Assembly (NCBI GenBank): GCA_016650365.1
Contig: JAENVV010000099.1
Coordinates: 1-41,556, forward strand
Reading direction: 5' to 3'
DNA: 41,556 bases
Source of the DNA: Acidimicrobiia bacterium
Lineage (GTDB): Bacteria > Actinomycetota > Acidimicrobiia > Spongiisociales > JAENVV01
This document shows, in pieces, positions 22,916-27,415 of this stretch (the first letter of the stretch is position 1; the number at the start of each line of letters is the position of its first letter). Under the pieces are notes generated by a model. That model did not search any database. It saw only the letters and a program-made list of their open reading frames with translations, and was not told where the DNA came from. Both the position numbers and the translations under genes were made by a program.

Positions 22916-23641
22916 CTATATGGTAGGTGATTCGAACGGGCCGTCCGCCGGTGGGGCGTCCGGCGAGGGTTTCGACATGCGATTCCGCACAAGCACTACC
23001 CCACCTCCAAGGAGGGCCAGTAACAGAATCACGCCAATCGTCACCGGAGCCCAATCCGTCGCAACCCGTGAGGTCGCTGAAATGGTCTTGCCTGAGTCAT
23101 CGATGCCGATCTCCCACACGAGGGTGCCATCTTCACGCACCACATCGGCATTGTTGTCCACGACGTCGCCTGGCATATGGACCGCAAGGACAATATCAAA
23201 GAAGTCGTCGAACGTATCCGCGGTTATGAACCCACCCAGACCTTCGGCGGCCGCGCTGAGATCGCCAATTGTGGCTGTGTAGCGATACTCGTTGCCTTCT
23301 CGAACGACGGTCACGTCGGTCGCCAGGCCGGCGGCGGTCGCATCTTGAAGGACCGTATTCAGTTCATCGATATCGGCGAAGTCTCGGACCGCTCTGGCAC
23401 CGGCCAGATCGTCTACGACGAGATCCTCCACGACAAATCCCTCCGGAACTCCCCCGGCCAGTTCAAACGCGCCGGCAGCGTCCTCGAATCCCGTAAGAGT
23501 TCTCAGTTCTTCGTCGAGTAGGACATCGAGAACGATTTGGCCGGAGCCGTCGTCCTCGATCCGGGTGGTTTGATCGACCTTCACCTGACACGCTGATCCG
23601 AGGAGAGCAAGCAGAAGGAGAGGCAAAAGAGTTCGGCGCAT
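22916..23641 (-). CDS. LppM-like exported protein with C-terminal membrane span
   Basis: The 241-residue protein has a secretion signal ending LLLLALLGSAC, with Cys18 a possible lipidation site; the -3 residue is Gly, so the lipobox is not ideal. A beta-rich domain (residues 19-185) opens with KVDQTTRIEDDGSGQIVLDV. A single span (about residues 192-213) and a Pro-rich tail follow. This layout matches the LppM (DUF3153) family of actinobacteria, linked in mycobacteria to phosphatidylinositol-mannoside surface properties. TAACTT (23653-23648) lies six bases before the ATG. The family call rests on architecture and the DGSG start. Confidence 0.7.
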   Translation of the reverse strand: MRRTLLPLLLLALLGSACQVKVDQTTRIEDDGSGQIVLDVLLDEELRTLTGFEDAAGAFELAGGVPEGFVVEDLVVDDLAGARAVRDFADIDELNTVLQDATAAGLATDVTVVREGNEYRYTATIGDLSAAAEGLGGFITADTFDDFFDIVLAVHMPGDVVDNNADVVREDGTLVWEIGIDDSGKTISATSRVATDWAPVTIGVILLLALLGGGVVLVRNRMSKPSPDAPPADGPFESPTI

Positions 23642-23709
23642 GCCCTCAAGTTAGCCGGACGAACCCTGGTTGGGAGATTGCCAGAGGCTGACGGCCGGAT
23701 GCTCGAATG

Positions 23710-23721
23710 ATGACTAGTCAT
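23710..23721. promoter_or_regulatory. 12-bp palindrome upstream of the subtilase
   Basis: ATGACTAGTCAT is perfectly self-complementary and lies 47 bases before the subtilase ATG. The inner ten bases recur at 25621-25630, at the start of the subtilase remnant. It may be a regulator site or a relic of duplication. Confidence 0.35.
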
Positions 23722-23768
23722 TGTGCGTTGCTCAAGGATGGTTCGCGGGAGATCGCGGAGAGTGACCG

Positions 23769-25550
23769 ATGAGAGACCAAAGAACACTGGGACCTTCCAA
23801 AGGACAACTCGTGAGCATCACCTCAGCTTTAACGAAAGGACGAGCCATCGGGCTCGTTCTCGTTTTTGCCCTGTTCGGATCGCTGCTGGCCGCACCAGCC
23901 GCCACGCCGTCAACCGATTTGGTCAAGGTCATCATCCGGACCATGGAGGGTGCATCCGTCGCTTCCACCATTGAGGATATGGGCGGCACCATCACCGGCA
24001 CCATGACAGCCATCGATTCGGTCACGGCCCAAGTACCAGCCAGCTCGATCGGTCGTCTCGAAGCCCATCCGAGCGTCATTTCGGTCACTCAGGACTCGAG
24101 CGTCGACCTCTCCGGTGGCGGTTGGGACAACGGCAAAGACGTCACGAACCTCGCCGAAGTAGCCAACGTCACCCAGGCCGGCAGCGCATGGGACAACGGA
24201 GCAACCGGTAATGGCGTCACCGTGGCACTCATCGACTCCGGCGTCACCCCCGTTGAGGGACTGGCCACGGCCGGCAAGATCATCAACGGTCCCGACCTTT
24301 CGTTCGACTCACAATACGCCGGCATGCAGTACCTCGACGCCTACGGCCATGGCACACATATGGCTGGCATTATCGCCGGTCGGGCTTCGGGCGTTGGTCA
24401 GGTTTACTCTCACCTCGCCAAAAAGAGCTTTCTCGGTGTCGCTCCTGACGCGCGAATCCTCAACGTCAAAGTCGGAGCCGCCAACGGTGCCGTCGACGTC
24501 AGCCAGGTCCTAGCCGGCATCAACTGGGTCATCGAACACCGCAATGACAACGGCATGAACGTTCGTGTCCTAAACCTGTCGTTCGGCACGAACTCTTCAC
24601 AGGCCTACACCATCGACCCACTCTCCTACGCCGTTCAGGTTGCCTGGAAGAACGGCATCGTGGTAGTCGTCGCCGCTGGCAACGACTCCAACGGCTCCGC
24701 ATTGCGCTCGCCAGCCACCAACCCGTACGTCATCGCGGTCGGCGCCGACGCCACCGGTGGAACCACCCGCACCAACGACGATTATGTCCCCGATTGGTCA
24801 AACTGCGGTACCTTGAGCCGCTCTGTCGACGTGGTTGCTCCCGGCAAGACGATCGCCTCGTTGCGAGTCCCGGGTTCATACGCCGACGTGAACTATCCCG
24901 GTGCCCGACTTGACAACAACCTGTTCAAAGGATCCGGCACCAGCCAAGCGGCTGCCGTTGTCTCAGGTATTGCGACTCTCGTGCTCGATGCCCACCCGGA
25001 GTACACCCCAGATCAGGTCAAGCGGGTCATCACCGGCACCTCCAAGAGCCTTTGGGGCATCCTGTCCACGTGCCAAGGATCCGGACTGGTTACCGCCTTC
25101 CAGTCTGTCACCAGCACCAGTCCTGGCACCGCCATCCAACAGGTCTGGGCACCGGCAACCGGGCTTGGCTCGCTTGAGGCGGCCCGTGGCTCCGATCACC
25201 TCGCCGACAATGGCGTGGCCCTCCAAGGCGAGATCGACATCTTCGGTCAGCCGTTCAGTTCGCCGGTGTGGGCTGGCAGCACCTGGTCCGGCAGCACCTG
25301 GTCCGGCGGCACCTGGAACGGATCCACGTGGTCGGGCAGCACCTGGTCCGGATCGACCTGGTCCGGCAGCACCTGGAGCGGCAGCACCTGGTCAGGGTCA
25401 ACGTGGAGCGGCAGCACCTGGTCCGGTGCCAACTGGAACGGATCGACCTGGTCCGGCGGCACCTGGAACGGATCCACGTGGTCGGGCAGCACTTGGTCCG
25501 GTAAGAACTGGACCGGCCTCACCTGGGACCACGGAAAGCGTATCCGCTAG
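23769..25550 (+). CDS. Secreted S8 (subtilisin-like) peptidase with WSG-repeat tail
   Basis: The 593-residue protein has a signal peptide (hydrophobic core about residues 27-43), an inhibitor-I9-like propeptide (VKVIIRTMEG through PSVISVTQDSS) and an S8 domain with Asp156 (VALIDSG), His194 (GHGTHMAG) and Ser392 (GSGTSQAA). After a GSLEAARGSDHL / GEIDIFGQPF junction comes a tail of 18 Trp-centred units, mostly STWSG, ending NWTGLTWDHGKRIR. Such tails are common in subtilases of Acidimicrobiia-like actinobacteria and may bind the wall or surface polymers. Two starts are possible: ATG 23769 (GGAG eight bases upstream) and GTG 23811 (AAAGGA seven bases upstream), the latter giving a more usual signal peptide. 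Confidence 0.92.
   Translation: MRDQRTLGPSKGQLVSITSALTKGRAIGLVLVFALFGSLLAAPAATPSTDLVKVIIRTMEGASVASTIEDMGGTITGTMTAIDSVTAQVPASSIGRLEAHPSVISVTQDSSVDLSGGGWDNGKDVTNLAEVANVTQAGSAWDNGATGNGVTVALIDSGVTPVEGLATAGKIINGPDLSFDSQYAGMQYLDAYGHGTHMAGIIAGRASGVGQVYSHLAKKSFLGVAPDARILNVKVGAANGAVDVSQVLAGINWVIEHRNDNGMNVRVLNLSFGTNSSQAYTIDPLSYAVQVAWKNGIVVVVAAGNDSNGSALRSPATNPYVIAVGADATGGTTRTNDDYVPDWSNCGTLSRSVDVVAPGKTIASLRVPGSYADVNYPGARLDNNLFKGSGTSQAAAVVSGIATLVLDAHPEYTPDQVKRVITGTSKSLWGILSTCQGSGLVTAFQSVTSTSPGTAIQQVWAPATGLGSLEAARGSDHLADNGVALQGEIDIFGQPFSSPVWAGSTWSGSTWSGGTWNGSTWSGSTWSGSTWSGSTWSGSTWSGSTWSGSTWSGANWNGSTWSGGTWNGSTWSGSTWSGKNWTGLTWDHGKRIR
25265..25535 (+). repeat. 15-bp tandem repeats encoding W-S-G units
   Basis: Eighteen TGG codons occur about every 15 bases; the commonest unit reads ACCTGGTCCGGCAGC with synonymous variation. 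The period is a multiple of three, so copy number can change without breaking the frame. This is coding sequence, not a CRISPR array. Confidence 0.9.
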
Positions 25551-25571
25551 CCGACAAATAAAGAAGGTCAG

Positions 25572-25597
25572 CTGAGCCTCGCCTCGTCGGGGCTCAG
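25572..25597. terminator. Hairpin after the subtilase gene
   Basis: CTGAGCC pairs with GGCTCAG and the stem extends by three more pairs (one G-T) to a six-base loop, 22 bases after the subtilase stop. It has no strong T tract. It lies between the subtilase and the remnant gene. Confidence 0.65.
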
Positions 25598-25619
25598 TCA
25601 CGTTTGAAGGAGATCAGCA

Positions 25620-26235
25620 GTGACTAGTCAGTTAGGTGCCGAAGAGTTTGGTTCCCAACTAACCACTCAGAGTGACGATATGACTTGCAAGAGCATTGGG
25701 GACCAGGTAAAGGCCGCACTCATCGCGACCGCCTCCCCGGTGTCAGGCTCGACAACCTGCCAGGGGGAGGCATGATCGACATCGGGGCGGCTGCCGGATG
25801 GACCGCCGAAGGTGACCCGACTCAGAACTTCGCTCCAGCAACCGGTACCGGGTCACTGGAAGCCGCCCGCGGGACGGACCACCTCGAGAATGCCGGGATC
25901 GTCCTCAATGGGGAGATGGACATCTTCGGCATGGCGTTCGACGGCTCGACCTGGTCAGACAGCACGTGGTCAGGATCAACGTGGAGCGGTGGGGTATGGA
26001 ATGGCTCTACGTGGTCGACAGCACCTGGTCAGGGAGTACCTGGTCAGGGTCTACATGGTCCGGAAGCACCTGGTCGGGTTCGACGTGGTCAGGATCCACG
26101 TGGTCAGATGCCTACTGGACCGGCTCTGCCTGGTCACGCAGCACCTGGTCGGCGAGTAGATGGACTGGCAATTCCTGGACGGGTTCAAACTGGACAGGAC
26201 TCACTTGGGATCACGGCAAGCGACACGCTCAGTAG
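25620..26235 (+). pseudogene. Remnant of a second WSG-tail subtilase, two frameshifts
   Basis: A GTG at 25620 with AAGGAG seven bases upstream opens a frame that reaches DQVKAALIATASPVSGSTTCQG and stops at 25773-25775. The next frame continues with GGGMIDIGAAAGW, NFAPATGTGSLEAARGTDHL, GEMDIFGMAFDG and W-S repeats to about 26018. The third frame then carries further STWSG units to SNWTGLTWDHGKRHAQ and a TAG. Each switch is explained by one missing base, the first in a run of five G (25762-25766). The parts align with the last third of the intact subtilase upstream (DQVK...STCQG, GSLEAARGSDHL, TGLTWDHGKR), but the catalytic Asp, His and Ser region is absent. It is a decayed tandem duplicate, unless the frameshifts are assembly errors. 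Confidence 0.8.
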
Positions 26236-26249
26236 AGCTCACACAACCA

Positions 26250-26288
26250 AGAATGGCGGGGGTCCGTAGTGGGAACCCCCGCCATTCT
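26250..26288. terminator. Strong 14-bp hairpin between remnant and pirin gene
   Basis: AGAATGGCGGGGGT (26250-26263) is the exact inverse of 26275-26288, with an 11-base loop. It sits between two convergent genes and would form a very stable hairpin on either strand. No T tract follows. Confidence 0.75.
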
Positions 26289-26313
26289 CCGGTTCAACGC
26301 CTCGGCAACCAGG

Positions 26314-27267
26314 TCAATGTTGTGCAGGAATTATCCCGAGCAGACCGGCCTCATAATCGGCATACGCCGTCACCAATTCGTCCCGGGTGTTCATAACAAA
26401 CGGCCCACTCCACGCCACCGGCTCACGAATCGGCCGGCCGCCCAGAATGAGCACATCCATATCAGGGCTCCGGGTCTCCTGGATGGAGTCAGCGGTAACG
26501 ACGATTGAATCGCCCGGTCCGAACAGGGCTAGCTGACCACTGACAATCGGGCGACGCTCGATACCAACCGATCCCTTTCCGCCAAGGACGTAGGCGAGAC
26601 CGTTGAAGTCCGGACGCCAGGGTACCTCCAACCGGGAACCGGGATGAAGGGTGCAGTGCGCCATCGTGATCGGCGTGTGCGTCGAGCCAGGACCTCGAAC
26701 GTCGCCAATTTCTCCGGCGATCAGCCTGATGATCGCTCCGCCATCTTGGGACGTCAGCAACGCGACGTCACCACCTCGAAGATCTTGATAGCGCGGAGCA
26801 ATGAACTTGTCTGCGGACGGCAGATTCACCCACAACTGGAATCCGTGAAACAGACCACCCGACATGACCAAATGCTCGGGTGGTGTTTCAATGTGGAGCA
26901 GGCCCGAGCCGGCTGTCATCCACTGGGTGTCGCCGTTGGTGATGACTCCCCCACCACCGTTGGTGTCCTGGTGTTCCATGATCCCGTCGATCATGTAGGT
27001 GACCGTTTCAAACCCGCGATGCGGATGCCAGGGCGTTCCTTTCGGCTCCCCCGGCGCATATTCGACTTCGCCCATCTGGTCCAGATGGACGAACGGATCC
27101 AGGTCGACGAGGTCGACTCCTTCAAACGCACGATGTACCGGGAAACCTTCCCCTTCAAAACCGCGCGGAGCCGTCGTGACAGACCGCACCGGACGAGGTA
27201 TGGATTGGACCGGCAGGGTCTGCACCCTTGGTAGGGATAGAAGGTCATCGACGTTGACGGCAGGCAC
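26314..27267 (-). CDS. Pirin family protein
   Basis: The protein (317 residues from the chosen start) is a bicupin of the pirin family. Metal ligands expected for the N-terminal cupin are seen in WHPHRGFETVTYMIDG and in GSGLLHIE, and GLFHGFQLWVNLP is a family hallmark. Bacterial pirins have been reported as quercetin 2,3-dioxygenases or as redox-sensing partners of other enzymes; the role here is unknown. I choose the GTG at 27267, with AGGAG five bases upstream. The frame is open for 35 more codons, but those residues do not look like pirin. It is divergent from the IPVD-repeat protein gene. Confidence 0.9.
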   Translation of the reverse strand: MPAVNVDDLLSLPRVQTLPVQSIPRPVRSVTTAPRGFEGEGFPVHRAFEGVDLVDLDPFVHLDQMGEVEYAPGEPKGTPWHPHRGFETVTYMIDGIMEHQDTNGGGGVITNGDTQWMTAGSGLLHIETPPEHLVMSGGLFHGFQLWVNLPSADKFIAPRYQDLRGGDVALLTSQDGGAIIRLIAGEIGDVRGPGSTHTPITMAHCTLHPGSRLEVPWRPDFNGLAYVLGGKGSVGIERRPIVSGQLALFGPGDSIVVTADSIQETRSPDMDVLILGGRPIREPVAWSGPFVMNTRDELVTAYADYEAGLLGIIPAQH

Positions 27268-27415
27268 GGAGGCTCCTAGGTGGTTGATTCGTACCGGTCC
27301 AACCATAGAGGCCAACCGTTGTATTCCCCCGGCACCAGGCGTCTGAACCCCGGGCAGCCTTCGAATAGCCACCTAGTCCGTCTACGATCCAACCACCCCC
27401 ACCAGGAGACCAGAC

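Follow-up and report, generated by a model that had tools for sequence, protein, structure and literature searches.

The window, the whole stretch of 41,556 nucleotides that was analysed, is one entire contig (contig 99) of a 341-contig genome (G000) of 3.49 Mb with a completeness of 97.78%. It carries an intact subtilase gene (copy 1) with a C-terminal tail of WSG repeats. On the same strand follows the remnant of a second such gene (copy 2), and beyond it lies a convergent gene whose product we take to be pirin-like. The features of this locus are collected in Table 1.

Table 1. Features of the tandem subtilase locus (window positions).
Feature	Position	Strand	Basis
Leader motif (ACTAGTC...AGAGTGRC) of copy 1	23713..23766	+	Pattern search
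S8 subtilase copy 1, predicted to be secreted	23769..25550	+	Pfam; triad; AlphaFold2 model matching PDB pro-subtilisins
Linker (SLEAARGSDHL...DIFG) and WSG pentad tail of copy 1	25140..25547	+	Alignments
Candidate hairpin between the copies	25572..25597	+	By eye; G003 and G004 show a comparable one in the corresponding position
Copy-2 leader motif, retained by the remnant	25623..25676	+	Pattern search
Deletion junction, leader fused to last S8-domain helix, GAC on each side	25698..25703	+	Comparison with G003
Remnant of copy 2: S8-domain end, linker, WSG tail, HGKR end	25701..26235	+	Two one-base frame changes
Hairpin between remnant and convergent pirin-like gene	26250..26288		Perfect 14-bp inverted repeat
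Pirin-like gene, synteny anchor	26314..27372	-	Common to G003, G004 and G005, 83.8–96.0% protein identity

Copy 1 is an intact open reading frame (ORF) of 593 amino acids, and both its sequence match and its active-site residues place it in peptidase family S8. It matches the Pfam family Peptidase_S8 (PF00082) with an E value of 4.9e-41 and a score of 141.4 bits, against a cut-off of 21.8, and it contains the triad D156, H194 and S392 as well as the oxyanion residue N305 (ORF numbering; positions assigned by motif). The true start is probably the GTG at 23811, since relatives have an ATG at that position and the leader motif ends at 23766. An AlphaFold2 model, built from an alignment of 40 sequences, has a mean pLDDT of 77.9 and matches subtilisins in the PDB, the first being pro-Tk-SP (3afg, E = 5.9e-26). 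Copy 1 shares with other members of family S8 the triad, the subtilisin fold and an N-terminal domain where the propeptide would sit, but differs from them by its C-terminal linker and some 18 WSG pentads, most of which read STWSG; the remnant retains just the end of the S8 domain. The enzyme would be exported and matured by loss of its N-terminal propeptide, and the tail might serve as a rigid beta-helix spacer or as a surface-attachment piece. The best NCBIfam match of copy 1 is the type VII secretion system (T7SS)-associated mycosin TIGR03921, and we rejected this assignment because its 155.1 bits lie below the equivalog cut-off of 278.75. Mycosins have a membrane helix at the C-terminal position where copy 1 has the WSG tail. 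Finally, a search of phage records with copy 1 returned 49 records, all below 60% identity and none covering 80%.

A reading made from the sequence alone (the sequence-only reading) had described an intact WSG-tail subtilase followed by a decayed copy that lacks the catalytic core, and this description is borne out. The DNA at 25620-26235 aligns with copy 1 with a score of 190.2, compared to a maximum of 31.4 among 50 codon shuffles. It is spread over three frames: one of 51 amino acids that begins with the GTG at 25620 (25620-25775), a second with the linker and the first pentads (about 25766-26017) and a third with the remaining pentads and the DHGKR end (up to 26235). The remnant therefore corresponds, as had been proposed, to the C-terminal part of the intact gene with two single-base frameshifts, one near 25767 and one near 26017. 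The sequence-only reading considered sequencing errors in runs of G and repeats; of the two frame changes, only the first lies in a run of G. None of the three pieces yields an S8 match in Pfam, and the D/H/S triad is deleted.

What the remnant once was can be read from the relatives. Four of the seven genomes of the family contain the tail at an E value of 1e-6. G003 and G004 belong to the same genus as the genome of the window. On contig 58 of G003, two full-length tail subtilases stand in tandem, with ORFs of 616 and 602 amino acids, and contig 62 of G004 carries a full second copy (632 amino acids) downstream of the end of another copy. In both genomes the second full-length gene occupies the place of the remnant, ahead of the same pirin-like gene. 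A second contig of G004 carries two further cores, one truncated where the contig stops; in all, G004 has three cores and G003 two. In G005 one copy is cut by a contig end, and another contig shows a copy-2-type tail end with the core out of view; no core was found in G002, a genome that is 90% complete. The pirin-like flank is present in all three relatives with a copy-2 end, and the gene upstream of copy 1 is common to all three relatives with copy 1 (73.4–96.3% identity); in both cases these are G003, G004 and G005. Moreover, over a 74-amino acid open stretch the remnant reaches 84% and 80% identity with the second copies of G003 and G004, respectively, versus 69% with copy 1 of its own contig. 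In a phylogenetic tree it falls into the copy-2 clade with an ultrafast support of 97, beside copy 2 of G004 (support 93); this tree comprises 13 short sequences of 64 to 75 amino acids, and several of its other nodes are weak (28–71).

Compared to copy 2 of G003, the remnant lacks 1192 bases. In G003 the corresponding segment contains the ribosome site, the start and residues 1–389 of 567, including D153, H189 and S367. A single deletion of about 1.19 kb deprived copy 2 of its start and signal peptide as well as its propeptide and catalytic core, and it may have arisen between a few matching bases, the GAC found on both sides. Neither this deletion nor either of the two frame changes is found in the intact second copies of G003 and G004. 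We conclude, with a probability of roughly 0.9, that two secreted subtilase genes once stood in tandem here and that the remnant is what is left of the second, now a pseudogene; copy 1 would then be the sole working member of the pair. The remnant itself would then be a case of ordinary gene loss, and it is the orthologues that settle the question of pseudogene versus tail-only gene.

To date the loss we counted codons that differ only in the remnant and in which the two intact second copies (G003 and G004) agree. There are 28 such own-branch changes in the 174 codons compared, 23 silent and 5 replacing, in counts that are soft since repeat arrays can exchange units. Neutral expectation is about 73–76% replacing. 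The intact branches together show 40 silent and 10 replacing changes (Fisher P = 1.0 against the own branch), so there is no excess of replacing changes over the intact branches that would indicate relaxed selection on the remnant. As a rough bound, at most 25–29% of the own-branch changes postdate the end of constraint. In the last 62–63 codons, for which G005 could be added, the own branch has 18 silent and 3 replacing changes, and G005 has 7 and 1. Because the substitutions show no sign of neutral decay, the pseudogene claim rests on the lesions. The dominance of silent changes suggests that selection had kept the tail until late, and the loss of copy 2 looks recent. The term recent pseudogene, one of two options offered by the sequence-only reading, is therefore supported both by these changes and by the sister genomes, where the gene stands at full length in the corresponding position.

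The same silent changes can be taken to mean that the deletion created a short tail-only gene that is still translated and selected, and that the frame changes, which are known from the assembly consensus and could be consensus errors, stem from sequencing or assembly. The GTG at 25620 has a GGAG upstream, and core-less tails also occur at two other loci (L102 and L112). We nevertheless regard this as very unlikely. The GTG start attributed to the remnant needs correction: it lies in the old untranslated leader common to G003, and G004 has no GTG there. Since the deletion removed the real ribosome site and start, the frame from this GTG runs through the old leader. It contains no signal-like stretch, as judged by eye, and stops short of the linker and tail. 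Because start and signal are missing, a recent loss is preferred over continued selection on the tail alone.

A search for tail-only genes in related genomes, the check that had been proposed, points in the same direction. At an E value of 1e-5 the tail is present in 32 of the 138 genomes of the order (where a genome had many candidates, 30 were scored). Across at least 56 named loci with the tail, plus the window, there are 67 tail segments; in 53, copy 1 among them, the core is in frame, and in the other 14 it is not. These numbers refer to the window and L071–L126, with loci L001–L010 left out. Two of the 14 belong to this remnant, three are contig-edge pieces (L072, L099 and L122), two are other frames over intact genes (L091 and L120) and two have the core in another frame (L103 and L119, the latter with masked or unknown bases). 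Three lie in two decayed loci (L102 and L112), and the last two are an unrelated-looking frame (L124) and a short piece with a masked stretch (L126). None is shown to be both intact and secreted; the three contig-edge pieces and L126 cannot be judged. Of the decayed loci, L112 has a broken frame itself, and no signal-like start is visible by eye in L102. Another 20 stretches were selected because their frames were short or broken or because they lay in tandem positions. Their core-less members fall at contig edges, have broken or masked frames, or carry a different repeat, and no tail row came from the L070 stretch. The proposed tail-only secreted module is thus not supported: start and signal peptide are deleted, the leader left behind gives rise to no gene in G004, and no intact secreted tail-only homologue appears among the matches listed.

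The two decayed loci have features of their own. At L102 (4001-4249, in an Acidimicrobiia metagenome-assembled genome, MAG) a tail stands without a core, and what looks by eye like a vestige of the subtilase serine motif lies just before it. L112 (1838-2311, on the same contig as L053) consists of linker and tail in a broken frame, again with no core, immediately following a gene that is presumably multicopper-oxidase-like. With these two loci also carrying core-less tails, losses that remove the core and keep the tail seem to recur. The pattern may owe something to search bias, since the tail was the query and core-only remnants would be missed. The nearest thing to a secreted repeat-only gene is at L058 (1806-2570), which encodes a small protein that begins with a signal-like stretch and carries GNTWTG repeats with a different period. 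In the literature, judged by titles among the matches listed, nothing concerns this tail or this loss.

Assemblers struggle with tandem repeats, and contigs of G004 and G005 end in these very tails. The catalytic core of copy 2 might therefore have been lost through misassembly between the tandem copies. We consider such an artefact highly improbable. At the junction, the leader of copy 2 is joined to the tail of copy 2 over a few common bases, and not over a stretch common to both copies, and there are two additional lesions. Furthermore, despite the completeness of the genome, searching it with the copy-1 core gives nothing beyond copy 1 itself at an E value of 1e-30 or better; the S8 genes elsewhere in it, spread over three contigs, are more distant from copy 1.

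The leader around the motif in the remnant is identical to that of copy 2 of G003 at 72 of 79 bases. The pattern ACTAGTCM-N20-45-ARAGTGRC occurs at seven sites in the seven genomes of the family, contributed by four of them. All seven sites precede WSG-tail subtilases or the remnant, and a reversed control gave none. As the pattern was drawn from these leaders, its presence at the genes is built in, and its absence elsewhere is the result. The motif is probably a promoter or a regulator site, and its retention in the remnant may mean that transcription persists. Being exclusive to these genes in the genomes searched, it provides a handle on their regulation. A sigma-70 scan returned one site, in the remnant, versus 0.5 in shuffles. 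The seven leaders fold with one weak long-range stem that shows no changes on both sides, so an RNA switch is not supported, and Rfam gave no match on 23500-26400 at E values up to 1. The hairpin downstream of the remnant, previously called a strong terminator, is shared with the convergent gene, lacks a T run and matches no intrinsic-terminator pattern. G003, G004 and G005 each have a hairpin of different sequence in the corresponding position, next to the convergent pirin-like gene. The candidate hairpin between the copies was not reported by the repeat search at the settings used. That the remnant is kept as DNA or RNA, with its leader or hairpins acting on copy 1 or on the pirin-like gene, is hardly credible despite the conserved leader and the downstream hairpin in three relatives, as the leader belongs to the lost gene and neither covariation nor an Rfam match speaks for a structured RNA.

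The tail that survives in the pseudogene repeats a tryptophan-containing unit of five residues almost perfectly and is found on secreted proteases; that of copy 1 (repeats at 25281-25526) is covered by neither Pfam nor NCBIfam above cut-off. Around 367 tryptophans pooled from 27 relatives, the residues are mostly S/T/A, S/T, W, S and G (38 relatives were given, 11 without the anchor motif were dropped and the window was not counted). With the pentapeptide-repeat proteins (Qnr, MfpA; PF00805, PF13576 and PF13599) the tail shares the period of five, a small residue two before the centre and a G two after it, but it has a central tryptophan where Leu or Phe is usual. By sequence, the tail of copy 1 weakly matches QnrB1 and Qnr in the PDB (E = 0.0038–0.0084) and a thylakoid pentapeptide protein (E = 0.19). 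It stays below the Pfam pentapeptide cut-offs (12.9 bits versus 38, and 14.2 versus 22.4), as do 17 others of the 20 tails. The two that pass Pentapeptide_3 (cut-off 27) are L079 (33.8) and L075 (31.2), and two more reach 24.2 and 24.6. A single-sequence AlphaFold2 model of the tail has strands every five residues, with a mean pLDDT of 69.1 for the best model and 56.3 to 40.6 for the other four. Its listed PDB matches are mostly SV2 luminal domains, which are pentapeptide helices, and pentapeptide proteins (MfpA, alr1298, AlbG and QnrB1), at a best E value of 6.1e-3, none below 0.001, and with an rmsd of 1.1–1.7 in some rows and 4 to more than 13 in others. Against such a helix stands the full-length model of copy 1, in which pLDDT is below 50 across residues 528–593. 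On this weak yet converging evidence we put forward a tryptophan-centred pentapeptide helix as a tentative proposal, at somewhat less than even odds. If true, it might represent a new chemistry for this fold. 

WSG-tail carriers, by record title among the matches listed, include named MAGs and strains of several phyla. It is conceivable, and we would again not call it probable, that a tryptophan-centred version of the pentapeptide-repeat beta-helix forms the tail of these secreted subtilases in Acidimicrobiia, other Actinomycetota, Chloroflexi and Dormibacterota. The family would then grow and shrink through tandem duplication and through losses in which the core goes but the tail stays, with the remnant as one snapshot. 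The genome of the window also contains a different WSG tail (GASWSG), which is cut by the end of contig 78 (L056, 3647-3787); an S8 core near the contig end on contig 236 could be its front part.
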